Below, piece after piece: positions 116 through 50,974 of a stretch of 64,000 nucleotides of DNA. Location: positions 62,001 to 126,000 of the forward strand of contig NZ_FRCW01000002.1 in the NCBI RefSeq assembly GCF_900143055.1, in the 5' to 3' direction. Positions within the stretch are counted from its first letter, which is position 1, and every line of letters begins with the position of its first letter. Source of the DNA: Fibrobacter sp. UWR3 (GTDB lineage Bacteria > Fibrobacterota > Fibrobacteria > Fibrobacterales > Fibrobacteraceae). Made by a program: the position numbers and the translations under genes. The notes under the pieces were generated by a model. It did no database searches and was not told the DNA's origin. It saw only the letters and a program-made list of their open reading frames with translations.

Positions 116-1762
116 CTAATCCTTGACGCAACGGACCGCAACCCCGAAGCTCTTAAAGTGGCTGTTCAGGTCCGCAATGTCTTTGTCGTAAAGCAAGCTC
201 ATAAACAACGCATTGTTGGGGTCGTTTTCAGAAGAACTCCAAAAAAATGCGTTATTGCCCTCACGAAAGTGGTAATTCATATCGTAGTCCATGATGCCAG
301 TAGAGATTGCAGAAAACCCGAAATCATCCGTGCCGTTGCCACCATCATACCAACTGGACGTAGCCTTTAATTTCAAGCCTCCAGTTGAAGAACCCCCGAC
401 CGCCGTGAACAGGTTTTCGAATTCGGTTACACTAGGCAAGTGCCAGCCACTAGGGCAAGCGGATGACGCCGCAGCCCAAGTGTAGAGGCGACCATACATG
501 GTACAATTGCGTTCCTCATGGTCGAAGCAAAAACTAGAGTCCGTTCTGAAGTTGAGATTCTCTGCCATCCACCACTGGTCACCAATTTTCACTGTCTTGT
601 AAGCCTGACCATCGCGCACATCCACCAACTCGCCGTATTCGCAAGTGTCCGTGCTATCGGTTTTGCATGGAGTCGCCAAAATGACCGAACTAGACGAAGA
701 CGGCTCCACCAGACTGCTGCTGGACTCTTCGACAGGCTCAGGGACCTTTGAGGAACTGCTTGACTGCGGGGTAACGCTAGACGAAGACTTTGAAGCATCG
801 TCCTTGATACAACGGACCGAAACAGGATAGTCCTTACTGCCGGTAAACTTGGACATTTCCGCCTTGTCCCATTGGTTGCACAAGAACACTTCATACGCAT
901 CAAGGCTCCTGCGCTGTACAGAACTCCAGAAATACGCGGCTTCGCCTTCGTCGTAATACCCATCGTCACCCAAAAGGCCTGCAGGGAGCGCCGAGAACCC
1001 AAAATCATCCGTGCCGCCGCCTTTTTCACCTTTGTAATCATACCAACCAGACATGGACTTGAGTTTTTTACCAGCGATTTCTCTACCGCCAACCGCGGCA
1101 AGTAAGGTTCCCCATTCCGTTGTGTCCGGCAGGTGCCAACCGTTAGGGCATATCCCGCGCACGGGATAAATCGGCGAGCAATCCTTCCCAAAACGGCCAC
1201 AACCCTTGCCGTTCGTGCTCCATGTCCCTGCACTATCCATTGCATCACCCCAAGCATAAAGGCGCCCGTACTTGACGCAATTGGGATTTCCATAACTGAA
1301 GCAATCGCTACTTCCAGTTTCGTAGTTCAAGTTCTCCGCCATCCACCACTGGTCACCAATCTTTACCGTCTTGTATTTTTTGCCATCGCGGTCGTCAGTT
1401 AATTCGCCGTATTCGCAGTTGTCTTCTGTCTCTGTTTTGCAGGGCGTTGCCAAAGTGACCGAACTGCTGCTGGATATAGTACTGCTACTGGACCCTTCGA
1501 CAGGCTCAGGGACCTTTGAGGAACTGCTCGACTGCGGTGTAACGCTGGACGAGGAACCATCTTCGCAGTCATTGCACACGCTCGATGAAGAATCGCCCGA
1601 AGGCGGGGTCGTAACATCGCTATCGTTGTCGCTACAGGCGACAAAGAATGCAGCCAAGATAAGCGAAAGTACAAGATGTATGGATCCTCGCCAGAGCCTG
1701 TCCTGAGCTTGCCGAACGGGCGAGGATGACCGCAATCCAGGATGATACCACAAATTCGTCAT
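116..1762 (-). CDS. FISUMP-domain lipoprotein with two FISUMP domains
   Basis: Predicted 548-aa exported lipoprotein. The ATG was chosen because AAAGGAGG sits just upstream; a longer frame to 1789 has no such signal. A repeat-encoded N-region (HPGLRSSSPVRQAQDRLWRG) precedes the hydrophobic segment LSLILAAFFVAC, whose Cys fits a lipobox. Poly-Ser linkers then separate two FISUMP domains (about residues 120-325 and 365-548). Each has the hallmark TVKIGDQWWMAENLN followed by a GWHLP motif and a terminal VRC-[IV]-KD. FISUMP domains are an abundant Fibrobacter paralogous family of unknown biochemical function; a surface role is inference. Linker tracts PEPVE are encoded by a short dispersed palindrome. 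Confidence 0.9.
   Translation of the reverse strand: MTNLWYHPGLRSSSPVRQAQDRLWRGSIHLVLSLILAAFFVACSDNDSDVTTPPSGDSSSSVCNDCEDGSSSSVTPQSSSSSKVPEPVEGSSSSTISSSSSVTLATPCKTETEDNCEYGELTDDRDGKKYKTVKIGDQWWMAENLNYETGSSDCFSYGNPNCVKYGRLYAWGDAMDSAGTWSTNGKGCGRFGKDCSPIYPVRGICPNGWHLPDTTEWGTLLAAVGGREIAGKKLKSMSGWYDYKGEKGGGTDDFGFSALPAGLLGDDGYYDEGEAAYFWSSVQRRSLDAYEVFLCNQWDKAEMSKFTGSKDYPVSVRCIKDDASKSSSSVTPQSSSSSKVPEPVEESSSSLVEPSSSSSVILATPCKTDSTDTCEYGELVDVRDGQAYKTVKIGDQWWMAENLNFRTDSSFCFDHEERNCTMYGRLYTWAAASSACPSGWHLPSVTEFENLFTAVGGSSTGGLKLKATSSWYDGGNGTDDFGFSAISTGIMDYDMNYHFREGNNAFFWSSSENDPNNALFMSLLYDKDIADLNSHFKSFGVAVRCVKD
727..746. repeat. Short dispersed palindromic repeat in linker
   Basis: CTTCGACAGGCTCAGGGACC, encoding the KVPEPVE linker of the FISUMP lipoprotein on the minus strand. 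An identical copy lies at 1495 and variants at 35214, 49447 and 50078. Confidence 0.7.
1495..1514. repeat. Short dispersed palindromic repeat in linker
   Basis: Exact copy of the 20-nt sequence at 727-746, again placed between two runs of serine codons of the same gene. Confidence 0.7.
1679..1745. repeat. Dispersed repeat encoding a signal-peptide N-region (copy 2)
   Basis: Same element as 25-95 (ATGGATCCT to CCAGGATGA). Read on the minus strand it encodes the HPGLRSSSP...RGSI segment immediately before the signal-peptide hydrophobic core. Confidence 0.75.
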
Positions 1763-13715: not shown

Positions 13716-13745
13716 CGAGCTGCACCGAAAAAGCCCAACGTTGTC

Positions 13746-13773
13746 ATCCCCGCGAAGGCGGGGATCTTTTTTT
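13746..13773 (+). terminator. Terminator formed by a dispersed repeat
   Basis: ATCCCCGC-GAAG-GCGGGGAT followed by seven T within eight bases. The same TCATCCCCGC...GCGGGGAT hairpin recurs at 27317 and, with a larger loop, at 31464. Confidence 0.9.
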
Positions 13774-13840: not shown

Positions 13841-16800
13841 CTAGTTGTCCTGGATGCAGCGGACGGAGTTAGCCGTTTCATCTCCAACCGCAGAAACATA
13901 TCCGTCATCAGCAATATTCATAAAGTGCAATGCATAATAACTAAGTGCAGAAGAAGTCGTTGTAGACCAAAACCATGTATCGTAATTTACTTTAGCATAA
14001 CTTCCGTCATTCTTTCTTTGACCTGCAGGCAAAGCCCTGAAAGAATAACGATCTGAGCCATTCCCACTCATTCTTTCTTCAACCCAACGTGTCGTCGACT
14101 TCAGTAAATATCCAGCATAGTCGGAACCGCCTACTGAACTAACCAGCGTACTAAATTCTGTTTGATCTGGCAAATGCCATCCTTTGGGGCAAACTTGACT
14201 TGCTGCACCATGTGTATAAAGGCGACCATATATATCGCAGTTTGCAGCATTTTCCTCATAGCAATAACTACCATCTGTTACGCGATTCATATTTTCCGCC
14301 ATCCAAAGTTGGTTCCCTATTGCTACAGTCTTATAGCTATGTCCATCAGTATCCTTAAGCACCCCCGTTACATACTGCGGATCAAACGATTTCCATTCCG
14401 AATTAACACATTTTTTGAAACTCCCTTTTACTTTATAAATACTATTTTCAATATAGCCAACACAAACTCGGCCAAAATCAATTTCGCCACTATTTGCCGG
14501 CCTAAACAATCCATCTTCACACACATACTTATTTTGTGTATTCACTCGACCGATAAGAATATTACCATAGCCATATTCACCAAATTCCTTACATTCACCC
14601 TGCATTTCCCAAGTATCATTGAATATATCAGAAGCAACGACCCACTTGCGCACGGTATCCGACGCAACCTGGTTCGTACACACATAATACAAGCCATCGT
14701 ACTTGGCAGGCGTAGAATAATCACCATCTGTAATACAAGCCTTCCCTAGCAGGCTATCCAAGGCTGTTCCGTAACGCCAACCTTTATCCTGGTATACATA
14801 GTACATGTTCGGATTCAGCGGTCCCCTGCGAACAGTCGCTTCATCAGGATTCTTGGGTAACTTCGTGACATCCTTCTCTATATCGGTCGCCTCGCGCCAA
14901 GCACAGGGTAACAGTTTATTATTCATTAAAACAACTTGGTCAGAGGCGCAAGTGTACCAGACTTGGGTTTTGCCAACCGTAACACTCCTAGTCTTGTTCA
15001 AGTTATTTTTTGTGCAGGGACCCAGGCTATCCAACATATCCAGATTCGTTCCGCGGCGCCATGCATAACCGCCCTTTCCCGAAGTATCTTCATAAACGTA
15101 AACATGGGATTCGTTCACATTGCCGATTTTTGCAACTTCCCCATCGGGGGTGCCGAAGAGCGCCGTGTCGGCCTCGGCGGTAGTCGCCTTGCGCCAAGCA
15201 GTGGGCACCAAAGCGTCATCACTATCATCGCAGATGTACCACGTCGTATCGTGCTTCACGATTACGCTATCGGTTTCGCCCCTATTGGCGAATACGCAGG
15301 CCTTGATTCTTGCATCGAGTTCGGTGCCGCGGCGCCAGCTGCCGTTCTCCTTCACGTAGACGTTCGTCGTGTCGATGGAACCGTGCTTTACAGTGTCTTC
15401 ATCCGCGGCGTTAAAGGCGGCAACGTCCTTCTCGAGGTCGGTTGCGAATCGCCATGCACCAGAAGCGTCACAAATCAGGCGCGCCAGGCTGCTGTCGCCT
15501 TCGGTATATGCAGAGTCGTTCGCTGCATAGTAGGCGGAGTACGCGTTCTTCGTGGCGAAGATAGCGCCTTCGTTACCCTTTGTACAGGCGGGAACATCCA
15601 GTTCCTTCATCCAGAAATTGGTTACATGGCCTTCGAATGCGGGGGCCTTGCTATCGGCGAGTTTCCAGCCCTCGATATTCGCACGGATAGTGGCTAGACG
15701 GCCATCAAGGTCAGCCTTCATCGCCCAGTCGGCAATCTGAGCGCGGCGCAGGGAATCGTCCCACACGCCATTGTCGCCCAGGTCCACACTCAATGCTGCA
15801 AGTAGGGCGGTAAGTTCGGACTCGTTGCGATCGCCCTGGAGCATCGCAGAAATAGCAAGCAGTGCGGCGTTGCCGTCACCTTCCTCAAGGATATTGAGGT
15901 CTTCGGCATAGTCGTCGAAGCCAGAATTGTCTATGCAAAACGCTGCAAAGAGGGAAGTTTCTGCATCGCGTTTCGCTTCAAACACAGACTTATTCCCCTT
16001 GGTAACAAGGCGCTGCACGCGGTCGTATTCCAAATGGGTCACCAGGTTGATGTTCGCCGTGCTTCGGCCGTCCAGGTTCGTGAGGGCACGAAGTTTGATG
16101 GTTGACGCACTGTTCTTGCCCGTCACCTCGTTGCGGTAGAAACCATCGGCAACAAGGTACGTGTAGGTACTCCTGAGCTTTACAGTCCTGATGTTGAAGG
16201 AGCCATCCTTATTCTCAATCTTGCCGCCGAATGTCTTACCCGTCTGCTTGAGGGACTTACCATTTTCCAATTCATAAGCCGTGACGTCGGTACCGCTAAC
16301 GAACGGTCCTTTCTGCGAAACGCCGCTGAGTTCCACGTCGTCCATGGGAGTGCACGCTTCATCATCCGGGTCACATTCTTCAGAGACACTTGCGGAACCC
16401 GTAAGGTCCATCGTGAAGGTTTCCGAACCGCAGGCGATTGTGGCAGTAAGCGCCGTAGATTCCTGAATCTTACAGCCGACGCCGTCCTTGCCATTTGTTC
16501 CATTTGTGCCGTTGGTGCCATTAGTACCATTCGTGCCGTTATCGCCCTTGTCACCTTTCTCGCCGGTATCGCCCTTTGCACCAGGTGCGCCATCGGCGCC
16601 GTCTTTTCCGTTACGCACCGTACCGATGGATTCCCCGTTACAGAAAATCTCGAAGCCTGAGTCGTCGCTGAGGCTCTTCGACATACATACGTTGTCACCC
16701 ACGCTCACAGTGCTTGCACTCAGTGATAGCCATTCCTTGCCGTCGCAGCCCAGGAACTCGTGTGTTTCGGAGATAAATGCGGTTTGCCCCGCAATTTCCT

Positions 16801-16930
16801 TGGTGCACTCGGGCAAATCCTTGCTCGTTTCCACCGCACCAACGTTCGCGTTTATCTGCTCGGTGATGTCGTCACCGCACGCCGCGAGAAGGAAAGCCGC
16901 AGGGATTGCAATTCGGGTTAAACACTTCAT
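13841..16930 (-). CDS. Large FISUMP lipoprotein with collagen-like repeats (paralog A)
   Basis: Predicted 1029-aa surface lipoprotein. A lipobox (FLLAAC, Cys18) is followed by a Cys-rich region with CDGKEW and GFEIFCNGESIG. A Gly-X-Y tract spans about 108-152 (GKDGADGAPGAKGDTGEKGD, then GTN repeats). A conserved beta-rich domain starts at SGVSQKGPFVSGTDVTAYEL, and an alpha-rich part follows. Several tandem modules contain YV..E.G.WRRGT.LD and WR.AT. The protein ends in one FISUMP domain (about 860-1029). No enzymatic motif is seen. It is highly similar to the gene just upstream, including the leader, which indicates tandem duplication. Confidence 0.9.
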   Translation of the reverse strand: MKCLTRIAIPAAFLLAACGDDITEQINANVGAVETSKDLPECTKEIAGQTAFISETHEFLGCDGKEWLSLSASTVSVGDNVCMSKSLSDDSGFEIFCNGESIGTVRNGKDGADGAPGAKGDTGEKGDKGDNGTNGTNGTNGTNGTNGKDGVGCKIQESTALTATIACGSETFTMDLTGSASVSEECDPDDEACTPMDDVELSGVSQKGPFVSGTDVTAYELENGKSLKQTGKTFGGKIENKDGSFNIRTVKLRSTYTYLVADGFYRNEVTGKNSASTIKLRALTNLDGRSTANINLVTHLEYDRVQRLVTKGNKSVFEAKRDAETSLFAAFCIDNSGFDDYAEDLNILEEGDGNAALLAISAMLQGDRNESELTALLAALSVDLGDNGVWDDSLRRAQIADWAMKADLDGRLATIRANIEGWKLADSKAPAFEGHVTNFWMKELDVPACTKGNEGAIFATKNAYSAYYAANDSAYTEGDSSLARLICDASGAWRFATDLEKDVAAFNAADEDTVKHGSIDTTNVYVKENGSWRRGTELDARIKACVFANRGETDSVIVKHDTTWYICDDSDDALVPTAWRKATTAEADTALFGTPDGEVAKIGNVNESHVYVYEDTSGKGGYAWRRGTNLDMLDSLGPCTKNNLNKTRSVTVGKTQVWYTCASDQVVLMNNKLLPCAWREATDIEKDVTKLPKNPDEATVRRGPLNPNMYYVYQDKGWRYGTALDSLLGKACITDGDYSTPAKYDGLYYVCTNQVASDTVRKWVVASDIFNDTWEMQGECKEFGEYGYGNILIGRVNTQNKYVCEDGLFRPANSGEIDFGRVCVGYIENSIYKVKGSFKKCVNSEWKSFDPQYVTGVLKDTDGHSYKTVAIGNQLWMAENMNRVTDGSYCYEENAANCDIYGRLYTHGAASQVCPKGWHLPDQTEFSTLVSSVGGSDYAGYLLKSTTRWVEERMSGNGSDRYSFRALPAGQRKNDGSYAKVNYDTWFWSTTTSSALSYYALHFMNIADDGYVSAVGDETANSVRCIQDN

Positions 16931-17024: not shown

Positions 17025-20000
17025 CTAGTTGTCCTGGATGCAGCGGACGGACATGGCATAGCCCTCAGGATAATCTCCCTGACTTACACTTGAGGCAAGG
17101 CCAAATCCTACATAATATGCTTTATCACCAGTGTACTTCTCTGTAGAAGTCCAGAAGAAAGCTCCATCGCTACCGTCAATATAGTGGGTTCCGTCGGGTT
17201 TCCAGTAACCACCAGGGAGTACCGTAAAGTTGTACACATCGGTTCCGTTTCCGTCGGAACCATACAAATTAATCCAATCACTCTTGGCCTTTAGAACCTT
17301 CCCAGCAACATCATTTCCTCCTACAGCAGCAAACAATTCACTCCACTCGCTACTGCTCGGCAGATGCCAGCCAATAGGGCATACAGTCATAGCCGTTTCC
17401 CAGACATACAAATGACCACGACCCTTGTTACAGTAATTACTATAAGTCTCAATATAGCAAGAACTGCCATCCGTTACATAATCCATGTTTTCCTTCATCC
17501 ATTGCTGCGCTCCAATTACAACTGTCTTGTATTCACGTCCAGCCTTGTCCCTCATTATCCCGGTGGTATCCTTATTGTAAACAGAATACCATTTATTATT
17601 AGAGCACTTACGGAATGAGTCATTCACTTTAAATGTCAGCCCCTGGAGGTAACCCACACAGACCCTGTCATACATCAATTCCGTACTTGTTACCAGCCTG
17701 AACTTGCCGTTTTCGCACACATAGCTATATCCGGTGCTTACATCCAGACCTTTCACTATATTACCAAAGCCGTACGCACCTAATTCTCTACACTCGCTAC
17801 GAAGATCCTTGGTCGTATTGTAGATATCCGGAGCAACCACCCACTTGCGGTTGACAAACATTCCGGCAATGTTCTCGAAAGTACATACGTAATACAGCTT
17901 GTTAACCTTGTTTTTCGATGTATCCCCTTCTACTACACAGCCCTGCTTTAGCAGGCTATCCAAGGCCGTTCCCACGCGCCAGGCGCCATCCTGGAATACG
18001 TAGGGCTGTTCCGTATTCACCTTTCCGTTGCGGACGTCACCCTTCTTCCACCCTCCGATGGCCGCCCAGCCGACAGTATCCTTCTCTATGTCGGTCGCCG
18101 AACGCCAAGAGAAAGCCACACGGAACGTATCGATAACGGTGCTGATATCGTTCGAGCACTTGTACCAGCTTTCACCAGCCCCAACAGTAATTTTTTTGAC
18201 AGCATCATTTTGGGCTTCGGTGCACGCACCAAGTTCAGTCCTTTCCAAATCCGTCGCAGGTCTCCAATAACCATTTTCCTTCACATAGTACAGATTCTTA
18301 TTTACATTGCCTTGCTGGTAATCGCCTAGCGTTCCTTCAAGGCCATATGTATCCTTTTCGTAGTTAGTCGCCTCGCGCCATTCCGTAGGCACAGGCTCGC
18401 CTTCTACGAGCGTGTTCCCGTCATTGACACACTTGAACCACATATTTTTAGAAGATCTGACAACACCGTCAACCTTATCCGACGTGCAAGGGCCCAAATC
18501 GCTGTCAAGGTCCAAGACCGTGCCGTAGCGCCACTTGGCATTACCGTTTCCGTCAACATCTTCAAACACATATACGAGCGACTTGTTCACGTTTCCAAGC
18601 TTTACAATCGCATCGCCCTCGCCGGGGGTGCCGAAGAGTGCAGTGTCGGCCTCGGCGGTAGTAGCCTTGCGCCAAGCAAAGGAATCGGACGCGTCATCGT
18701 TTTTGTCGCAGATGTACCACACAGGCTCGCGCTCTACTATAAGGCTGTCGGTCATGCCCTTGTTATCAGCAACGCAGGCGGCGTCAAGGGAGGCATCCAG
18801 TTCGGTGCCGCGGCGCCAAGCGCCATTTTCCTTCACGTAGACGTTCGTCGTATCGACGGAGCCTCGTTTTACAGCACCATCATCCGCAGCGGTAAATGCG
18901 GCGACATCCTTCTCGATGTCAGTTGCGAAGCGCCATGCGAACGAATCGCCGGAAGCCGCGCAAATCAAACGCACCAGGCTGCTGTCGCCGTCGGTATATG
19001 TGGAATCGTTCGCTGCGTAGTAGGCGGATTTCTTGTTCTTCGTTGCGAAGAGCGCACCTGCGTTACTGGAGTCGCACTTATCCACGCCGAGTTCCTGCAT
19101 CCAGAAGTTCGTCACGTGCTGTTCGAATGCAGGGGCCTTGCTGTCGACGAGTTTCCAGCCCTCGATATTCGCACGGACGGTGGCAAGTCTGCCTTCGATG
19201 TCCGCCTTCATCGCCCAGTCGGCAACCTGAGCTCGGCGCAGGGAATCGTCCCATTCGCCGTTGTCGCCGAGGTCAACACTCAATGCAGCCAGGAGTGCCG
19301 TGAGTTCAGACTCGTTGCGATCGCCTTGGAGGAGAACGGAGACCGCGAGGAGCGCAGCATTACTGTCGCCTTCCTGGAGGATATTGTAGTCTTCGGCGAA
19401 GCCACGGAAATTAGAATTGTCGATACCGAACGCTTTGAAGAGCGACTTTTCAGCGGCACGCTTCGCCACGATCACGGACTTGTTCTCCTTGGTGACGAGG
19501 CGCTGCACGCGGTCGTATTCCAGATGGGTCACCAGGTTAATGTTCGCCACGCTACGGCCGTCCAGATTTGTGAGAGCACGTAGCTTGATCGTAGCCGCAC
19601 TGTTCTTGCCCGTCACCTCGTTGCGGTAGAAACCGTCGGCAACAAGGTACGTGTACGTACTCCTGAGCTTTACAGTCCTGATGTTGAAGGAGCCGTCCTT
19701 ATTCTCGATCTTGCCGCCGAATGTCTTACCCGTCTGCTTGAGCGACTTGCCGTTTTCCAATTCATAAGCAGTAACGTCCGTACCGCTCACAAACGGGCCC
19801 TTCTGGCTCACGCCGCTGAGTTCCACATCACCCGAGGGCACTGTGCAGGCATCATCAGTGGCGTCGCATTCTTCGGGCACGTCTACATAGCCAGTCAAGT
19901 CCATCGTGAAGGTCTCGGAGCCGCAGGCGATAGTCGCCGTAAGCTCGGTAGATTCCTGAATCTTACAGCCGGCGCCGTCCTTGCCATTCGTTCCGTTCGT

Positions 20001-20456
20001 ACCAGGTGCGCCATCCTTGCCGTTCGTACCGTTAGTGCCCGGCGCGCCGTCCTTGCCATTTGTGCCGTTGGTACCCGGAGCGCCATCCGCGCCCTTGTCA
20101 CCGGTATCACCTTTGTCTCCCTTTTCACCGTCCTTGCCATTCTTGACCGTACCGATGGATTCCCCGTTACAGAAAATCTCGAAGCCCGAGCCGTCGCTGA
20201 GGCTCGTGGAGGTACACACGTTGTCGCCCACGTTCACCGTGTTGGCGCTCAGCGTCTGCCATTCCTTGCCGTCGCAGCCCAGGAACTCGTGAGTCTCCTT
20301 GATGTATGCCGTCTGCCCGGCAATGTCTTCGGTACAAGCCGGCAGGTCGTCACTGGACTTAACCGCGCCAACGTTCGCGTTGATTTCAGTGATGTCGTCA
20401 CCGCACGCCGCAAGAAGGAATGCCGCAGGGATTGCAATTCGGGTTAAACACTTCAT
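17025..20456 (-). CDS. Large FISUMP lipoprotein with collagen-like repeats (paralog B)
   Basis: A 1143-aa relative of the downstream gene with the same order. It has lipobox FLLAAC (Cys18), a Cys-rich N-region, a Gly-X-Y tract (about 107-162 with GAPGTNGTNGKD repeated three times), the SGVSQKGPFVSGTDV domain and WRxGT/WRxAT modules. A terminal FISUMP domain follows (about 970-1143, hallmark VIGAQQWMKENMD). It carries about one more WR module than paralog A. From the lipobox to about residue 450 the two are nearly identical, then diverge. Surface display is inferred from the lipoprotein signal; ligand and function are unknown. Confidence 0.9.
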   Translation of the reverse strand: MKCLTRIAIPAAFLLAACGDDITEINANVGAVKSSDDLPACTEDIAGQTAYIKETHEFLGCDGKEWQTLSANTVNVGDNVCTSTSLSDGSGFEIFCNGESIGTVKNGKDGEKGDKGDTGDKGADGAPGTNGTNGKDGAPGTNGTNGKDGAPGTNGTNGKDGAGCKIQESTELTATIACGSETFTMDLTGYVDVPEECDATDDACTVPSGDVELSGVSQKGPFVSGTDVTAYELENGKSLKQTGKTFGGKIENKDGSFNIRTVKLRSTYTYLVADGFYRNEVTGKNSAATIKLRALTNLDGRSVANINLVTHLEYDRVQRLVTKENKSVIVAKRAAEKSLFKAFGIDNSNFRGFAEDYNILQEGDSNAALLAVSVLLQGDRNESELTALLAALSVDLGDNGEWDDSLRRAQVADWAMKADIEGRLATVRANIEGWKLVDSKAPAFEQHVTNFWMQELGVDKCDSSNAGALFATKNKKSAYYAANDSTYTDGDSSLVRLICAASGDSFAWRFATDIEKDVAAFTAADDGAVKRGSVDTTNVYVKENGAWRRGTELDASLDAACVADNKGMTDSLIVEREPVWYICDKNDDASDSFAWRKATTAEADTALFGTPGEGDAIVKLGNVNKSLVYVFEDVDGNGNAKWRYGTVLDLDSDLGPCTSDKVDGVVRSSKNMWFKCVNDGNTLVEGEPVPTEWREATNYEKDTYGLEGTLGDYQQGNVNKNLYYVKENGYWRPATDLERTELGACTEAQNDAVKKITVGAGESWYKCSNDISTVIDTFRVAFSWRSATDIEKDTVGWAAIGGWKKGDVRNGKVNTEQPYVFQDGAWRVGTALDSLLKQGCVVEGDTSKNKVNKLYYVCTFENIAGMFVNRKWVVAPDIYNTTKDLRSECRELGAYGFGNIVKGLDVSTGYSYVCENGKFRLVTSTELMYDRVCVGYLQGLTFKVNDSFRKCSNNKWYSVYNKDTTGIMRDKAGREYKTVVIGAQQWMKENMDYVTDGSSCYIETYSNYCNKGRGHLYVWETAMTVCPIGWHLPSSSEWSELFAAVGGNDVAGKVLKAKSDWINLYGSDGNGTDVYNFTVLPGGYWKPDGTHYIDGSDGAFFWTSTEKYTGDKAYYVGFGLASSVSQGDYPEGYAMSVRCIQDN

Positions 20457-27257: not shown

Positions 27258-27316
27258 AAGTAATATACACTATTCCTTGCGAAATTGCAAACCAGTTTTT
27301 CAGATATTAAGAGTAG

Positions 27317-27336
27317 ATCCCCGCCTACGCGGGGAT
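27317..27336. repeat. Dispersed ATCCCCGC hairpin overlapping rsmD stop
   Basis: ATCCCCGC-CTAC-GCGGGGAT. The rsmD stop codon (CTA on the plus strand) lies in the loop, so the repeat supplies the end of that gene and may act as its terminator. Confidence 0.8.
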
Positions 27337-27885
27337 GACATTGCGGTATATCACGAGCGAGGATTCGCCGTAGCGGCGGACCTGCACAGTTCCGGCCTCG
27401 TCGGCCTCTTTCACCCATGCGGGGAGGTTCTTGCTCGGGGCCTCGAACACGGCGACACCCCCCGGGTTGAGCCATTCCCAGTACTTGCGCAGGTCAGGGT
27501 ATTCCCTATCCTTGAACGGAGGGTCCGCATAGATAAGGTCAAAGCCCTCCGTTGCGCAGAGCGATTCCTTCTCGAGCATGAGGGCGTTCTTTTCTAACAA
27601 AGTAACTTTTTCGGAAAGGCCGAGCGCCTTGTACGCCTGGTACACGAGCCTCGCCTGCGAATGCACGAGTTCTACCGCTACAACGCTTGCGGCCCCGCGG
27701 CTTATCGCCTCGATGCCCATGATTCCTGAACCCGCAAACAGGTCGAGCATGCGGAAGTTCTCCACTCCCTGCAGAATGTTAAAGAGGGCTTCCCTCGTGC
27801 GGGAAGCCGTCGGCCTGGTCTTGTTGCCCTCCGGAGAAGGAACGTTCCTTCCGCGAAGAGCACCTCCGGTAATGCGGATAGACAT
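27325..27885 (-). CDS. rsmD: 16S rRNA (guanine966-N2)-methyltransferase RsmD
   Basis: Class I SAM-dependent methyltransferase, 186 aa, modifying G966 of 16S rRNA. It begins with the RsmD hallmark RITGGALRGRNVPSPEG. It carries the SAM loop DLFAGSGIMGIEA (about 50-62) and the catalytic ADPPF (about 119-123). The C-terminal NVIPA and the stop codon fall inside a dispersed hairpin repeat. It starts 2 nt after the stop of the PilN-like gene, so it belongs to the pilM-pilN-rsmD unit. Confidence 0.95.
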   Translation of the reverse strand: MSIRITGGALRGRNVPSPEGNKTRPTASRTREALFNILQGVENFRMLDLFAGSGIMGIEAISRGAASVVAVELVHSQARLVYQAYKALGLSEKVTLLEKNALMLEKESLCATEGFDLIYADPPFKDREYPDLRKYWEWLNPGGVAVFEAPSKNLPAWVKEADEAGTVQVRRYGESSLVIYRNVIPA

Positions 27886-31396: not shown

Positions 31397-31463
31397 ATAA
31401 CCTCGTTACTTACAGGCAGTAAAATAGCAAATTATTTTCGCAGGGACAAGTAGCTAGTAAAAG

Positions 31464-31507
31464 ATCCCCGCCTTGGTTCGGCGACGCTCACCACAGGTCG
31501 CGGGGAT
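31464..31507. repeat. ATCCCCGC hairpin with inserted loop
   Basis: Arms ATCCCCGC and GCGGGGAT match the repeats at 13746 and 27317. The loop is 28 nt and contains GTTCGGCGACGCTCACCACAGG, a relative of the other dispersed palindrome (TTCGRCARGCTCA), suggesting one repeat nested in another. It lies between gatC and the helicase gene and may terminate the latter. Confidence 0.6.
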
Positions 31508-31544
31508 GACATAACGCGGGAATGACGTGACGCAGGGACAACCG

Positions 31545-35113: not shown

Positions 35114-36049
35114 ATGCGACACCTTGCAATCACTGCAGCTTTCCCGATTATACTCGCCGCCTGCGCCGGCGCACCCGAAGTCGAAACTGAACCCGCAACC
35201 GACACCGCGGCCCCTTCGGCAAGCTCAGGGACCTTATCAGTAACCGACGAAACCGCAGCACCCCCCGAACCGGCGAAGCAGCTCCCGGACAATTCCTCAC
35301 TCCCGAGCATCCTCGTGACCCCCGCCCAGAACGGGAAGGGTATCTCGGAACTGCAGGTAGTACAGAACAACCCGATGGCACGCGCCATGATGGAAGCGGT
35401 AAACGAGTACCTGACCAAAAAACTCTACGACGTGAAGTCGCTCGAGGGGGACGCAAACCTCAACTCCGTGGTGCAGATGCAGAACGACATCGCCGAGACG
35501 GACGAAGACCTCTCCTACCTCGCGAGCCTCGCCCTCGGTGCGGACGTTTACATCAAGTTTTCCGGCAACGTGAAGCCCGGTGCCATCTCCGTCGACCTGA
35601 ACGCCTACGAATCTTCCACCGCAAGGCTCCTCGGGAGTGAATCCGCCATGGATGACGACTGCGGCGGCAACGACCAGACCGCTATCGCCGAATGCCTCCA
35701 CAAGGCAGCAAGGCGCGCCATGCCCCTGCTCGAAAAGAAAATCAAGGCATACTGGCAGAAAGATTTAGAACAGGGAATTCAGTACAAAGTAATAATGAAT
35801 ATCAAGGGAGAATTCGACGAGGAAGAAATCGAGGACCTGCACGACGATATCGCCTCGGGGCTCAAGAAGGCGTTCAAGCGCGTAAACGTGAACGTGATGA
35901 CCGCAAAGACCATCGACGCCATCATCTACGCCGACGGGAACGAGTTCCCGGATTCGCAGAGCGTGTACAGCGCCATCCGCGGTATGCTCAAGGGCAAGAC
36001 CAAGAAAATCAACCTCACGAGAAAACTCATCCTGATGGATATCGAGTAG
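35114..36049 (+). CDS. Lipoprotein of unknown function
   Basis: A 311-aa predicted lipoprotein (MRHLAITAAFPIILAAC, Cys17). A Pro/Ala/Thr-rich linker includes PSASSGTLS, encoded by a copy of the dispersed TTCGGCAAGCTCAGGGACC repeat. A mixed alpha/beta region of about 240 residues follows, with ALGADVYIKFSGN and a repeated half (KVIMNIKGEFDEEEIEDLHD). The fold hints at two related domains of the type seen in periplasmic proteins that report LPS or pilus assembly, but I do not recognise it. The stop is immediately followed by the GTG start of a TPM-domain gene, so the two are translationally coupled. Confidence 0.78.
   Translation: MRHLAITAAFPIILAACAGAPEVETEPATDTAAPSASSGTLSVTDETAAPPEPAKQLPDNSSLPSILVTPAQNGKGISELQVVQNNPMARAMMEAVNEYLTKKLYDVKSLEGDANLNSVVQMQNDIAETDEDLSYLASLALGADVYIKFSGNVKPGAISVDLNAYESSTARLLGSESAMDDDCGGNDQTAIAECLHKAARRAMPLLEKKIKAYWQKDLEQGIQYKVIMNIKGEFDEEEIEDLHDDIASGLKKAFKRVNVNVMTAKTIDAIIYADGNEFPDSQSVYSAIRGMLKGKTKKINLTRKLILMDIE
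35214..35233. repeat. Short dispersed palindromic repeat in linker
   Basis: CTTCGGCAAGCTCAGGGACC, a variant of the 727 and 1495 copies, here read in the opposite orientation relative to the gene and encoding part of its linker. Confidence 0.65.
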
Positions 36050-37084
36050 GTGACCCCGAACCTGAAAAACATTCTCGCGGCAACGCTCGTACTGTGCGCA
36101 ATCGCGCAGGCGCTCCCCTCGCGGCCCGAAAACAGCCATATATACGACGAGAACCGCCTGGTCCCGGCGCAGCAGCTTGAATTTTTTGACCGGATCTCGG
36201 ACGAAGTCGCGAACGAGACGGGAATCAGCATCGATGCCGTGCTGCTGAACGACATCGGGGAGCGCGTCGCTGCAAAATACGCCGAGGAGATTGCGGAAAA
36301 ATGGCAGGCGGACGCCGGCCGTGAAGGCGAAGTCCTGATATTCGTCGCCCAGAAGCAGAGGCGCAAGCTGGTAGTGACCCGGGGAACCGCAAGCAGTATC
36401 ATTGACGAGGCAAAAATCCGCAAGGCCGAGCAGGAATTCCTTGTGCCGAACTTCCGCCAGGAACGCTACGGTGACGGCATACTTTCGCTTGCCGGGTGGC
36501 TCACATTCGCCATCAGCGACAGCACAGGGAAAAAATTTGACATCGACATGCAGGAAGCACCCGCCGAGGAAGGCATGACCGTGCGCGGGTGGCTTTTCGT
36601 CGCGGTCGTGTTCGGCCTGCTCATCGCCTTCGGGAGAAAGGGCCGGAGGTTCGGGTTCTTCGACAACATGAAGAAGTTGCTATGCGTTAGCGAAATTGAA
36701 AAGTCGCAGTGGCCGGGAATCTTCCGGGACGCCTTCGGCGACAACCTCGTTTCGGCGTTCATCTCGGGCAGGTGCCTCGTGGAAGGTTTCGACGCGCTCG
36801 CAACGCCCTGGACTATAGACTTTATCCTCAGGGACAATTCGCCCGAGGTAATCACGAAGCTTGACGCCTTCCGGGAAAAGGCCCGCAGGGAGAACATCGC
36901 GTTCGGGCACTTCTACACCCCGGCAGAAATCGCGCAAATCCGCGACCCGCAGGAACTTGAATACCTACAAATCGCAAGCAGGAACGCGCCCCTCTGCGGC
37001 GTTCAAGATTTCGGCGTTCAAGATTTCGGGGTTCAGGATTTGGGGGCTCAAGATTTGGGGGTTCAAGATTTCAAAAATTTCTGA
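36050..37084 (+). CDS. TPM-domain membrane protein with repeat-derived C-terminus
   Basis: A 344-aa protein starting at a GTG directly after the preceding stop. A signal-like N-terminus leads into a TPM (TLP18.3/Psb32/MOLO-1) domain (about 25-165), with RLVPAQQLEFFDRISDEV at its start and VLIFVAQKQRRKLVVTRG. One membrane helix follows (VRGWLFVAVVFGLLIAFG, about 182-199), then a cytoplasmic tail. The final 26 residues are copies of GVQDF/GVQDL, encoded by a 15-bp tandem repeat running into the hairpin array. The role of TPM proteins is poorly known; envelope quality control is a possibility. Confidence 0.83.
   Translation: MTPNLKNILAATLVLCAIAQALPSRPENSHIYDENRLVPAQQLEFFDRISDEVANETGISIDAVLLNDIGERVAAKYAEEIAEKWQADAGREGEVLIFVAQKQRRKLVVTRGTASSIIDEAKIRKAEQEFLVPNFRQERYGDGILSLAGWLTFAISDSTGKKFDIDMQEAPAEEGMTVRGWLFVAVVFGLLIAFGRKGRRFGFFDNMKKLLCVSEIEKSQWPGIFRDAFGDNLVSAFISGRCLVEGFDALATPWTIDFILRDNSPEVITKLDAFREKARRENIAFGHFYTPAEIAQIRDPQELEYLQIASRNAPLCGVQDFGVQDFGVQDLGAQDLGVQDFKNF
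37009..37080 (+). repeat. 15-bp tandem repeat at 3' end of TPM gene
   Basis: Five imperfect 15-bp copies of GGCGTTCAAGATTTC, translated as GVQD[FL] repeats just before the stop codon. Confidence 0.8.
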
Positions 37085-37089
37085 AAAGT

Positions 37090-37570
37090 AGGACTAAGTG
37101 GGCGATTTTTTGAGGTTTAGTCCTATCGGCCTGTGCAAAGCCCAGCCGACAATAGGACTAAATCGCGGCAAATGTGAGGTTTAGTCCTATTTTGCTTGGC
37201 GTTCAGTCCTATTTTGCTTGGAGTTCTTGAACATTTACCAGTAATTTGGGGAAATTTTTTGCACGATGCAGAATTAAAATAGGACTAAACGTGCGAAACT
37301 TTGGGGTTTAGTCCTATCGGCCTGTGCAAAGCCCAGCCGACAATAGGACTAAATCGCGACAAATGTGAAGTTTAGTCCTATCTTGTTTGGCGTTCTGTCC
37401 TATTTTGCTTAGCGATCTCGACCATTTACCAGTAATTTGGGGAAATTTTTTGCACAATGCAGAATTAAAATAGGACTAAACGTGCGAAACTTTTGGGTTT
37501 AGTCCTATCGGCCTGTGCAAAGCCCAGCCGACAATAGGACTAAATCGCGGCAAATGTGAGGTTTAGTCCT
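37090..37570. repeat. 191-bp tandem array of paired hairpins
   Basis: AGGACTAAA and TTTAGTCCT arms enclose 17-nt loops in six hairpins: 37090 (with a G for the last A), 37154, 37281, 37345, 37472 and 37536. They come in pairs 64 bp apart, with the pair repeated every 191 bp (2.5 copies). Within a pair, a third hairpin, TCGGCCTG against CAGCCGA, lies between them. The sequence between pairs (ATTTACCAGTAATTTGGGG) is conserved. The array fills the gap between convergent genes and holds no credible gene. Confidence 0.9.
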
Positions 37571-37627
37571 ATTTTAGCGCTTGATTACATCACGCGCACC
37601 CTAATCGCGGAGCCTTCCCTAATCTCA

Positions 37628-38785
37628 TTACCTCCGGCGGATTGCGCCGCCGAAGCCGCCACGCGAAGACCCGCGGTCATCGCGGTCCTGGTCGTCCCTG
37701 CGCGTTGAAGGTGGCGGCGGAGGCGGCGTGGACGAAGAGCCCGAAGACTGCCTGCGATTGTTCGCGATATCCATCGGGTCGTAATCGCTTCCCCGACCGT
37801 TATCCCAGCGGTCGTCCCGCGGGCTCTGCGCCCTCGGTGGAGGCGGAGCCGCCTGCATGTTCCTGCGGGTAACGTCGTTACGCGAGGTTTCGCGATACAC
37901 CTGCGACTCGCGGGAATTCAAGTCCACAGGGCGCGTTGCCCCCGAATGGCGCGACACCGCTGCCGCAGGCCTTGAGGCCTGCGGGGCAGGCCCCGCCGAA
38001 GAACGGCGATTCAGGTCCGGCCCGACGGTATGCCTGTGGCGAGGAGGAGGCGCATAGCGGTGCGGGTGCCTGGGCCCGCGCCTGGGCGCGTGCCAGCGGT
38101 GGTCGCGCATGTATATTGCGCGCGCATTCCAGTCAAACCAGCAGGAACCCCACCCCCAGTACCCGTAATGCGTGCCGAGCCATACTCCCGGAGCGTAGCT
38201 TACACGCACGTACCCGTCGTAATAATTGTAATAAACGACATACGGATTGTACACGGGAACGTAGACGTATTCCGTACGTACCGGCATAATCGTGATGTTC
38301 TCGCCAGTCGTGACCTTCACGTAGTCGTCATTCCGCAAGTGCCCGCGCTCGTTTGCCGCCCTACGCAAGCGCTGCACCGCCTGCATAACGTCTTCCTTCT
38401 GGATAAACACGGCATCGCCAAGCTGGTCGGTCCATGCGGCATACCTATTCATCATCGAGAGCACGCGCGGGAACGGGATAAGCGCCTGGACGCTCGCATC
38501 GTAAGGCAGTTCTGCGGCCGCAATCGCATTCGAAAGCGCGTCGCCCTTCAGGTGCTTGTGCGCATTCGCCCATTCGCTCGCGGGGGCAATCTGTTCGCCG
38601 TAAGTTGAAGCGGCCAGCACCTGCACCAGTAGCGGGTCCGGGTAAAGCGCGATATTCGCCACCAGCGTGTCCAGTTCCGAAGCGCTGAAGTAAGCCTGCG
38701 CGCGGCCAACCCCCGGCAGGCAGAAAACCGCCGCCAGCAAGAGAATAGGCCAAATTTCGGAACGTTTTGTCTCATTTCTAGACAT
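37628..38785 (-). CDS. DUF3300 secreted protein
   Basis: A 385-aa exported protein with a strong GGAAGGAGG site, which sets the start, and signal IWPILLLAAVFCLPGVGRAQ. The DUF3300 domain (about 30-235) contains LDTLVANIALYPDPLLVQVL, ALIPFPRVLSMM and the aromatic-rich VPVYNPYVVYYNYY region. The last 150 residues are low-complexity, rich in Arg, Pro, Ser and Asp. Function of DUF3300 is unknown; members are periplasmic or surface proteins. It converges with the TPM gene across the hairpin array. Confidence 0.88.
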   Translation of the reverse strand: MSRNETKRSEIWPILLLAAVFCLPGVGRAQAYFSASELDTLVANIALYPDPLLVQVLAASTYGEQIAPASEWANAHKHLKGDALSNAIAAAELPYDASVQALIPFPRVLSMMNRYAAWTDQLGDAVFIQKEDVMQAVQRLRRAANERGHLRNDDYVKVTTGENITIMPVRTEYVYVPVYNPYVVYYNYYDGYVRVSYAPGVWLGTHYGYWGWGSCWFDWNARAIYMRDHRWHAPRRGPRHPHRYAPPPRHRHTVGPDLNRRSSAGPAPQASRPAAAVSRHSGATRPVDLNSRESQVYRETSRNDVTRRNMQAAPPPPRAQSPRDDRWDNGRGSDYDPMDIANNRRQSSGSSSTPPPPPPSTRRDDQDRDDRGSSRGGFGGAIRRR

Positions 38786-45626: not shown

Positions 45627-47084
45627 TTAATCCTTTACGCAGCGAACGTAGCAACCGAATAGTTTCTCGTTCTTACTCATGCTCGCATAATCACTGCCAA
45701 CATACAAATAATAGGCAAAACGCGGAGAAACGTCGTAAGAAGCCCAAAGACATGTGGAACTGCCTGTTTGCTGATTATTGAAGACGGGTGGCAGAACCAT
45801 CCCGCCAGGCATCAGCGAAAATCCGTATTTATCACGGAAAGCACTTTCAACGGTTCTAGAATCATTCTGCCACAAGTTAGACGCCTTCAAGTTGCTATTC
45901 CCGGAATGCCGTTCATTGACTGCGTAGAGCATAGTCTGGAATTCAGCCAAATCCGGCAAATGCCAGCCTTCCGGGCAAATTCCGCGAACATCTCTCGCTC
46001 TTGTGCAATATGAATCATTGCCACAGCCGACCGCATCATCGGAAAACTTGCCCAGGTAGTCCATGGCCGCAGCCCAGGTATATCCATATCCGTACTTGGC
46101 ACAGGAATCCTTGTCATCCTTGATGCATCCTGCCCCTTCCGGATAATCAAGCCTCAGATTTTCCGCCATCCATGTTTGATCACCGATCACGACAGTCTTG
46201 TATTCACGGTTGTCGCGACTATCCTTGAGTGTCCCGTATTCGCAGTTGTCCTCTTCTTGCGTCTTGCACGGTTCCAGTTGCGCGACATCCGCAGAATCGG
46301 GTATCACCTTATAGAAATCGTCATCCTTCACGCACCTTACGGCCATATAGCAGCCACCACTATTGTCTTTCCATTCCACCGGTTTTTCTGCTTCCAAGTT
46401 AAAGGAATACAGGCTACCGTACTGGGCATAGTCTGCCGACATGTATATGGCTTTCGTATTGGACCCTCCGCTACATCTCATTCCCGTGGGAGTCGCGGCA
46501 AAACCATAAATGTCCGTATCGCCCTGCCTATCGTACCAGGCGTCGACAGACCGCAGCAACTTGCCTGCGGAATCCGGGCCGCCAACAGTCGTCACCAGCT
46601 TGCTGAAATCCATAAATCTCGGAAGATGCCAACCCGCGGGGCACGATACTTTCGCATCCATGTCCCAATAGTAGCGCCATACATCAGTGTCGGCAATGTC
46701 CGGGGTATAATTATATGAATATTTCGTGGCAGTATCCGTATAGTTCAGGTTCTGCGCCATCCAGGTCTGTTCCCCGATGACCACGTACCGGTAAGCCTGC
46801 CCGTCGCGTTCGTCGATAAACACCTGCACGCTGCTCGAACTCTCGGGTTTCTGCGAACTGCTGGATTCTTCTACCGAGCTACTCGATACAGAACTGCTAG
46901 ACACAGAACTGCTCGATTCCTCGATAGAACTGCTAGAAGCTTCTTCGGAAGAACTTTCCACGGAACTGCTAGATTCCGGTTCCGGGTAATCGAGCGACGA
47001 CGAGCCGTCATCGGAACACGCCGCCATCGCCAGCGCAACAAAAACACCCGTCACACATTTCTTGAAATTCATTTGCCTCTTCAT
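45627..47084 (-). CDS. FISUMP-domain lipoprotein with two FISUMP domains
   Basis: A 485-aa lipoprotein. A GGAGG site sets the start; signal GVFVALAMAAC places Cys22 in the lipobox. A long poly-Ser/Glu linker (about 25-90) leads to FISUMP domain 1 (about 92-255; YVVIGEQTWMAQNLNYTDTA) and domain 2 (about 275-485; VVIGDQTWMAENLRL), each with GWHLP. The linker lacks the repeat-encoded PEPVE tract, and the N-terminus lacks the repeat-encoded extension found in the other two multi-FISUMP genes. That makes it a useful reference for the un-invaded state. Confidence 0.9.
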   Translation of the reverse strand: MKRQMNFKKCVTGVFVALAMAACSDDGSSSLDYPEPESSSSVESSSEEASSSSIEESSSSVSSSSVSSSSVEESSSSQKPESSSSVQVFIDERDGQAYRYVVIGEQTWMAQNLNYTDTATKYSYNYTPDIADTDVWRYYWDMDAKVSCPAGWHLPRFMDFSKLVTTVGGPDSAGKLLRSVDAWYDRQGDTDIYGFAATPTGMRCSGGSNTKAIYMSADYAQYGSLYSFNLEAEKPVEWKDNSGGCYMAVRCVKDDDFYKVIPDSADVAQLEPCKTQEEDNCEYGTLKDSRDNREYKTVVIGDQTWMAENLRLDYPEGAGCIKDDKDSCAKYGYGYTWAAAMDYLGKFSDDAVGCGNDSYCTRARDVRGICPEGWHLPDLAEFQTMLYAVNERHSGNSNLKASNLWQNDSRTVESAFRDKYGFSLMPGGMVLPPVFNNQQTGSSTCLWASYDVSPRFAYYLYVGSDYASMSKNEKLFGCYVRCVKD

Positions 47085-48925: not shown

Positions 48926-50974
48926 CTAGTCCTTGAGGCAACGAACAGAGAGACCGTAATACTTATAATGATCTCCTAGATACACATACGCTTCCCAATA
49001 TCTCAAGCGCGCATAAGACGCACTTTCACTATTAAATTCGTCGGCCATCCAAAAACTAGCTTCATCTTCACGATTATTAAAATAACCTTGATCATAGTTG
49101 CCAGCAGGAAGCACCGAGAACCCGAAATTATCCGATCCATTGCCATTACCATACCAACCGGATGTAGCCCTGAGAACCGGACCAGCAGTCGATGCACCCC
49201 CAACTGCAGTGAATAGGGTATTCCACTCATCATAGCTAGGCAAATGCCATCCACTCGGGCAAGCGGATACCGCCGCAGTCCACGTATAAAGCCGCCCGTA
49301 CGTGGTACAATTGGTTTCATTGTTGCTATAACAGAAGCTTGAATCCGTTTTGAAGTTGAGATTTTCCGCCATCCATGTCTGCGAACCAATTTTAACCGTC
49401 TTGTACGTTTGGCCGTCGCGAGAATCTGTCATAGTTCCGGTCGTCACTTCGGCAGGCTCAGTGACCTTACTCGATGAAGATTCAACTTTTTTTGAACTGC
49501 TCGACTGCTGTGTGACGCTAGAAGAGGATTGTACAGTCTCGCCTTCGTCCTTGAGGCAACGGACAGAAAACCCGTAGTTCTTGCCGTCGTTGCACAGGTA
49601 CGCACCGCTGTCGTCACAGTGCAAGTACATGTCGTATGCGTCGTCGCTACCGCCCTCTGTAGAACTCCAGAAGCCCACGCGAATGCCCTCGCCGCTGTAT
49701 TCCCCGTAGCTGAGCCTGAGGCCGGCAGGGAGCGCGGAGAAGGCGAAGGCATCCGAGCCATTGCAACTACTATCCCATCCGGAAGTGGACTTGAGCACCT
49801 TGCCTGCTGTTGATTGACCGCCGACTGCCGTGAACAAAGTTTCGAATTCCTCTTCTGTTGGCAGATGCCAGCCCTCAGGGCAAGCCGTTGTCGCGGCAGC
49901 CCAGGTGTAAAGGCGGCCGTACTTGGTGCAGTTGCTTGCACTGTCTTTGTAGCAGTAGCTGTTCGCAGTTTCGTAGTTGAGGTTCTGGGCCATCCAGGTC
50001 TGAATGCCGATGGTGACAGTCTTGTACGTCTGGCCATCGCGGGAGTCTGTCATAGTTCCGGTCGTCACTTCGGCTGGTTCGACAGGCTCACCAACCTTTG
50101 AAGAACTGCTCGACTGCTGTGTGACGCTAGAAGAGGATTGTACAGTCTCGCCTTCGTCCCTGAGGCAACGAACCGAGCGCCAGTCGACACCATCGTAGTA
50201 ATCCAGACGAGCAGAGTCAGCAGAGTAGTAACCCAAAGCAGAGGCGTAGTAGTCATCCAAACTAAGGAAATACGCGCCACTGCTACCGTACTCAGTAGAA
50301 CTCCAGAAGTACGCGGAGTAGCCGTTGCCGTATTCCTCTTTGTTGCCATCCCTGTAGCCTGTTGGAATCGCCGAGAACCCAAAGGCATCCGTGCAGTTAC
50401 CACTCTTACGCCAACCGGATGCAGACTTAATAGCCTTGCCCGCTGTTGATGCTCCCCCAACTGCAGTTAATAGAGTATTCCACTCGTCCTTACTGGGCAG
50501 ATGCCAACCTGCGGGGCACACGGTTTTCGCAGTATTCCAGTTGTAGAGGCGACCATACGTAGAGCAGTTTTCCGATTTTCCATCGGGGCAGTAGGTATCA
50601 TCTGTTTCGTAGTTGAGATTTTCCGCCATCCAAGTCTGCGAGCCAATTTTTACAGACTTGTATGTATGGCCATCGCGGGAATCGAGCAATTCTCCATATT
50701 TAATATCAGGATTAAACTGATTAGAACTGCTACTTAATTCTTCTCTGCTCGAAGATGACTGGAGATCACTTCTAGATGTCTGCGCAGAATCGGAGGATTC
50801 CCTAGCCTGTTCAGCCTTCCAGTCCTCAAAATCGCCTTCCATCTGGTCGACATAGTCTGTACAGGCGGCAAGGAAAACGAGAGCGAAAAATAATGCTATG
50901 GATCCTATCGCCCCTACGGGGCTCCAGGATGACAATTTTGAGTGGTTCCAGGATGACATTTTTGAATTACTCAT
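48926..50974 (-). CDS. FISUMP-domain lipoprotein with three FISUMP domains
   Basis: A 682-aa lipoprotein starting after AGGAGG. The N-terminus MSNSKMSSWNHSKLSSWSPV is repeat-encoded and precedes the signal core IALFFALVFLAAC. Three FISUMP domains follow (about 90-275, 310-480 and 515-682), each with SVKIG, TVTIG or TVKIG, TWMAxNLN and GWHLP. They are separated by Ser-rich linkers that are nearly identical at the nucleotide level (ETVQSSSSVTQQSSSS), showing recent domain duplication. Dispersed palindromes encode the PAEVT and EPVEPAEVT linker parts. Function unknown; surface exposure inferred. Confidence 0.9.
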   Translation of the reverse strand: MSNSKMSSWNHSKLSSWSPVGAIGSIALFFALVFLAACTDYVDQMEGDFEDWKAEQARESSDSAQTSRSDLQSSSSREELSSSSNQFNPDIKYGELLDSRDGHTYKSVKIGSQTWMAENLNYETDDTYCPDGKSENCSTYGRLYNWNTAKTVCPAGWHLPSKDEWNTLLTAVGGASTAGKAIKSASGWRKSGNCTDAFGFSAIPTGYRDGNKEEYGNGYSAYFWSSTEYGSSGAYFLSLDDYYASALGYYSADSARLDYYDGVDWRSVRCLRDEGETVQSSSSVTQQSSSSSKVGEPVEPAEVTTGTMTDSRDGQTYKTVTIGIQTWMAQNLNYETANSYCYKDSASNCTKYGRLYTWAAATTACPEGWHLPTEEEFETLFTAVGGQSTAGKVLKSTSGWDSSCNGSDAFAFSALPAGLRLSYGEYSGEGIRVGFWSSTEGGSDDAYDMYLHCDDSGAYLCNDGKNYGFSVRCLKDEGETVQSSSSVTQQSSSSKKVESSSSKVTEPAEVTTGTMTDSRDGQTYKTVKIGSQTWMAENLNFKTDSSFCYSNNETNCTTYGRLYTWTAAVSACPSGWHLPSYDEWNTLFTAVGGASTAGPVLRATSGWYGNGNGSDNFGFSVLPAGNYDQGYFNNREDEASFWMADEFNSESASYARLRYWEAYVYLGDHYKYYGLSVRCLKD
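49447..49466. repeat. Short dispersed palindromic repeat in linker
   Basis: CTTCGGCAGGCTCAGTGACC, a variant of the 727 copy, located in the linker between FISUMP domains 2 and 3. Confidence 0.6.
50078..50096. repeat. Short dispersed palindromic repeat in linker
   Basis: TTCGACAGGCTCACCAACC, a variant of the same family in the linker between FISUMP domains 1 and 2. Confidence 0.6.
50897..50960. repeat. Dispersed repeat encoding a signal-peptide N-region (copy 3)
   Basis: ATGGATCCT at one end, a GCCCCTACGGGGC palindrome in the middle, and two CCAGGATGACA units at the other end. It is related to 25-95 and 1679-1745 but is read in a different frame by the gene that contains it. Confidence 0.7.

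Follow-up and report, generated by a model that had tools for sequence, protein, structure and literature searches.

The window (the whole 64-kb stretch analysed here, from the rumen bacterium Fibrobacter) carries FISUMP-type lipoprotein genes on the minus strand, which we name by the position of the start codon. Gene 107 (1-107) is FISUMP-like, begins MKNLWCHPGLRSSSPVRQAQDRLRRGSMHLVFALFLALFFVAC and extends beyond the left edge of the window. Gene 1762 (116-1762) and gene 50974 (48926-50974) encode FISUMP-domain lipoproteins of 548 and 682 residues and begin MTNLWYHPGLRSSSPVRQAQDRLWRGSIHLVLSLILAAFFVAC and MSNSKMSSWNHSKLSSWSPVGAIGSIALFFALVFLAAC, respectively; in both, a palindromic repeat encodes most of the n-region, the part of the signal peptide that precedes its hydrophobic core. 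A ribosome site lies 5' of each start (GGAGG for ATG-1762 and ATG-50974, GGAG for ATG-107), as an earlier sequence-only reading had described.

All three repeats are in frame and on the minus strand. In gene 107, the repeat (26-76) is GTC-tagged, with a ATCCTCGCC/GGCGAGGAT stem, nested sequence in the loop and a CCA tail, and a half unit, TGTCATCCTGG, read CHPG, lies immediately upstream (82-92). The repeat of gene 1762 (1681-1731) is of the same subtype, TCATCCTCGCC...GGCGAGGATCC with further sequence nested between these ends, and is accompanied by the half unit TATCATCCTGG, read YHPG (1737-1747). The copy in gene 50974 (50899-50934) belongs to another subtype, TCATCCTGGA...GATAGGATCC, arranged as ATCCTGGA-GCCCC-GTA-GGGGC-GATAGGAT with a CCA tail; it is read SSWSPVGAIGS and has a fold z of -2.83, and its half unit, again TGTCATCCTGG, is read SSW (50948-50958). 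Thus, TCATCCTGG is indeed read in two frames, giving HPG in gene 1762 and SSW in gene 50974, and each of the three heads has a Gly-Ser encoded by GGATCC. The paralogous FISUMP lipoprotein gene at 47084 (45627-47084, minus strand) lacks the repeat, as had been noted, begins MKRQMNFKKCVTGVFVALAMAAC and serves as a control within the window.

Over 117 bp, genes 107 and 1762 have heads that are 92% identical. Their copies probably represent one event multiplied by gene duplication, which most likely leaves two insertions in the window, not three. The earlier idea of repeated in-frame insertion is retained. Further copies, all of the CCCC-stem subtype, lie at 13742-13767 (plus strand, TGTCATCCCCGCGAAGGCGGGGATC, intergenic), at 27315-27340 (minus strand, overlapping the 3' end of a gene called at 27325-27750) and at 31463-31509 (minus strand, intergenic, with other sequence nested in the loop).

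The window contains other repeated sequences as well. A second dispersed word, CCTTCGACAGGCTCAGGGACC, is partly palindromic and lies in Ser-rich linkers of FISUMP lipoproteins (722-748, 1490-1516, 49442-49468, and 50072-50098), where it is read in frame as KVPEPVE or similar; a further copy is at 35209-35235. Several direct and inverted copies of GGCGGTGAAAT occupy the intergenic region upstream of gene 1762 (1816-2069). In each of two tandem paralogs (13841-16930 and 17025-20456), a stretch of collagen triple-helix repeats is joined to a FISUMP domain at the C terminus, and at 36983-37657 tandem 15-bp repeats are followed by three 191-bp repeats with an inverted TAGGACTAAA motif. Look-alikes of the palindrome in Ser-rich linkers, TCATCCTCGGC...GTCGAGGATC (read SSSAPVED), are set apart as probable low-complexity coincidences.

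Form and relationships of the repeat family

The repeat is a palindrome, [CT]GTC-ATCCT...AGGAT-CCA, with more than 100 copies in the Fibrobacter genome to which the window belongs. The whole hairpin, TCATCCT-N5-35-AGGATC, has 108 matches in this 3.55 Mb genome, compared with one for the reversed control, which establishes a dispersed family, and the consensus [CT]GTC-ATCC...GGAT-C(C/T) fits nearly all copies. The unit first proposed has to be redrawn as this hairpin, of which GGATCCAT and TGTCATCCTGG are the two ends. In the 64-kb window, GGATCCAT alone is not significant (3 found, 1.5 expected); TGTCATCCTGG with one mismatch allowed occurs five times where 0.86 is expected, a number reached in none of 100 shuffles.

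Four subtypes are separated. The two short ones, ATCCTCGC-GNAG-GCGAGGAT and ATCCCCGC-GNAG-GCGGGGAT, have a fixed stem of ~8 bp and a small loop. The two longer ones have a bipartite stem with fixed outer arms and hypervariable yet mostly self-complementary inner arms, which are distinct in 40 of 41 and 17 of 18 copies. Some elements are nested in one another, as in gene 1762. Of 115 copies, 110 have a CGTC or TGTC tag. Subtypes A and B most often have a CCA tail, which is also common in C; CTA, CTT or CTC occurs in others. Across the genus, the copy number of TCATCCT-N5-35-AGGATCC ranges from 0 to 173, and in most other genera of the phylum it is near background.

These features resemble the CGTC-tagged REP superfamily, whose members have an unpaired CGTC end (often TGTC or CCTC), a stem of 8-9 bp starting with A-T, a loop of 4-5 nt and a short unpaired tail that is mostly CCA (Di Nocera et al. 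2013, PMC3733652). The Fibrobacter repeat shares the CGTC/TGTC tag and a palindromic stem starting from AT, and CCA is common among its tails; the stem and loop rule fits the short subtypes, the longer ones having the bipartite stem. It is likewise dispersed, mainly intergenic and without a dedicated tyrosine transposase, and some copies are in frame in genes, repair genes being prominent. The superfamily includes some Rickettsia palindromic elements (RPEs), and uvrB of Rickettsia conorii carries two in-frame elements (PMC3733652), as does uvrB here. Unlike the superfamily, the Fibrobacter family has two subtypes with a hypervariable self-complementary inner stem, its elements nest, and it resides recurrently in n-regions, which appears not to have been described for the superfamily. 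The main text of PMC3733652 does not mention Fibrobacter. The likeness to RPEs considered here is one of placement: palindromes lie in frame in unrelated coding genes. Proteins with an N-terminal RPE-1 insert are reported to be expressed, in work cited in PMC3733652, and we found no report in the literature that RPEs favour signal peptides. GTAG REPs with RAYT transposases (REPtrons and REPINs) are also short, intergenic palindromes of high copy number, but the Fibrobacter repeat lacks the GTAG tag, and the genome has no match to the Y1 transposase family (PF01797), on which ground a RAYT-type transposase is rejected as the mover. A known structured RNA is likewise rejected, the window having no Rfam match.

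Placement relative to start codons and signal cores

Most copies in the genome are intergenic. Family models place in-frame copies in unrelated genes: uvrB (twice), hrpA, tilS, dusB, mutY, the genes of a uroporphyrinogen methyltransferase and a glycosyltransferase, and those of FISUMP lipoproteins. For mutY and dusB, the match falls short of the curated cut-off, as would be expected if the gene is interrupted. Both UvrB inserts fall between residues 635 and 722, in the variable linker that joins the helicase core to the C-terminal domain. Coding-region copies away from n-regions are found in either orientation, at sites tolerant of insertion. Shortly past its in-frame palindrome, the mutY gene (L011:1202-2425, plus strand) also encodes a series of RCEMP(N/D)A-like repeats within the enzyme.

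At least eight copies lie between the start codon and the signal core (genes 107, 1762, 50974, C6:178320, C5:11290, C2:220504, C6:36533, and C8:161045), with signal peptides called by hydrophobicity and lipobox rules and genes by a home-made caller. These are 8 of ~89 resolved copies with the ATCCT stem (subtypes A, B, and C), and n-regions, defined with a loose predictor, make up ~0.36% of the sampled sequence; the excess is marked even with paralogs discounted. None of the 30 copies in 790 kb of unbiased sampling outside the window is in an n-region, so it is the searches of the genome and of the genus that carry the claim. Profiling the n-regions of an unbiased 854 kb sample for 13-mer repeat density is uninformative, most n-regions being shorter than the word. 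The mapping thus confirms copies between starts and cores, but the proposed tie to lipoprotein starts is not supported by it: most copies are intergenic, some are in cytoplasmic genes, and one kind of n-region host, a TolQ/ExbB-like gene, does not encode a lipoprotein.

Relatives with and without the insert are found in other Fibrobacter genomes. GGAGGTTTTATG and a mature start, CDDSSSAS, are common to the lipoprotein heads L333, MKKILLTMGLVAFAFVGCDDSSSAS, and L334, MRKFLVLSSWSRKAIGSMLIMAFTFVGCDDSSSAS, of which L334 alone contains the repeat; further relatives have nested inserts at the matching spot. Lipoproteins that have the insert and relatives that lack it agree in ribosome site and mature start. 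In the TolQ/ExbB-like gene, 30 Fibrobacter genomes share a conserved GGAGG-ATG and a conserved mature protein, and the n-region varies by species: it is short, or contains this repeat, another repeat (GTCATTGCGAG) or heptamer tandem repeats. Thus, the repeat is not specific to lipoproteins, and several kinds of repeat land in n-regions. The heptamers (GGAATTC, AATGTGA, AGACGAA, and CTCTCGT), a unit that is not a multiple of three, fill this n-region in several genomes (heads L128-L157).

Across 80 Fibrobacter genomes, the pattern SD-ATG-N0-30-GTCATCCTG has 63 matches and its reversed control none; the pattern requires GGAGG, so the search itself selects for the upstream ribosome site. Among the matches examined, 30 distinct starts lead into a frame of at least 100 residues in which the motif precedes a hydrophobic core. 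One that passed this filter (L294) is dropped because the far repeat end is missing, leaving 29 heads with a recognisable repeat end; gene 50974 is one of them, and two others are alternative starts of a single gene. The 29 heads fall into ~7 unrelated mature-protein groups, and all three forward frames are used (SSW, HPG/HPE, and VIL), which bears out, for the whole genus, the view that the repeat enters between start codon and core repeatedly, in frame and in more than one frame.

All 29 heads carry the repeat in the forward orientation. The antisense equivalent has 38 matches, with no signal peptide among the 30 loci examined. With the forward motif placed at 90-120 nt, there are two signal-peptide cases, both long multi-repeat heads. 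Open forward frames have a net charge of +0.93, compared with +0.07 for antisense frames (P 4e-5), and the forward repeat commonly encodes peptides rich in Arg and Lys (SSSRRRGS, HPGRSRRR, and HPERSAKR), which may be why only this orientation is seen in n-regions. The difference in charge is modest, and charge alone may not explain 30 to 0. In 24 of the 29 heads, no Lys or Arg lies between the repeat and the core, so a start past the repeat would give a signal peptide lacking a positive n-region. Together with the conserved ribosome sites, this supports translation that begins upstream of the repeat.

Origin and meaning of the n-region copies

The elements probably form a REP-like, CGTC-tagged family that is dispersed over the genome and survives at sites of low harm, the n-region being a permissive landing site filtered for frame and perhaps for positive charge. 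Some process would spread the small palindromic elements, and insertions would survive where they do little damage, in intergenic regions, linkers and protein ends and, strikingly often, in the gap between start codon and signal core. An n-region may accept almost any length, provided that the reading frame remains open and the encoded peptide is not acidic. Later diversification of the heads would come from gene duplication, nested insertions and deletions. We infer that permissiveness and charge selection are the cause of n-region residence.

A different and rather unlikely reading is that the repeat is an exapted cassette, in which a longer, Arg-rich n-region or an mRNA hairpin after the start tunes translation or export and the n-region copies are positively selected. 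The strict orientation bias, the Arg- and Lys-rich products and the persistence of the repeat through duplications are consistent with it, as is an apparent excess over intergenic density: the density of n-region copies seems higher than that of intergenic copies, which simple tolerance does not predict, although paralogs inflate the count. However, lipoprotein signals are intact in paralogs and relatives without the repeat, unrelated repeats fill the n-region in other species, which points to tolerance, and an mRNA hairpin is nearly identical in either orientation and leaves the strand bias unexplained. A related proposal, to which we likewise give little weight, takes the elements as mobile n-region donors, the forward strand being kept to encode a basic, frame-tolerant peptide and n-regions being a selected home. 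If it is true, export signals across the genus are both provided and remodelled by a small palindromic repeat.

It is improbable that the heads descend, each as a unit, from a single ancestral gene through 5'-end duplication or gene conversion, with one insertion giving many copies. Genes 107, 1762, and C6:178320 do have MxNLWxHPGL in common, and genes 50974 and C6:36533 have CTDYVDxxEGD in common, but subtypes, frames and insertion points differ, also among unrelated mature proteins (~7 groups).

Least probable of all is a 5' untranslated repeat with the real start (ATG or other) just past it and an accidental open frame upstream: the repeat end AGGATCCATG resembles a weak ribosome site, some copies (gene 107 and several relatives) finish in GGATCCATG, and late starts have been suspected for N-terminal REPs of other bacteria (Di Nocera et al., PMC3733652), but GGAGG and ATG upstream of the repeat, although pattern-selected, are also present in relatives found without that filter, ATA follows GGATCC in genes 1762 and 50974, 27 of 30 heads lack a start codon in the interval from repeat to core, a downstream start would strip the positive n-region, and insert-free relatives begin at the same upstream start.

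The landing-site reading concerns an element of a kind already known, and what appears to be undescribed is that it resides recurrently, and with a strand bias, in n-regions. REPs are known to insert in frame, and N-terminal cases have been suspected to be misannotated starts (PMC3733652); the N-terminal insertions described here are credible in view of conserved ribosome sites and mature proteins, and of relatives with and without the insert. The finding calls for caution in the annotation of start codons of Fibrobacter surface proteins. It suggests that dispersed repeats of several kinds have the signal-peptide n-region as a sink throughout the genus, and it provides a natural test of how widely n-regions can vary.
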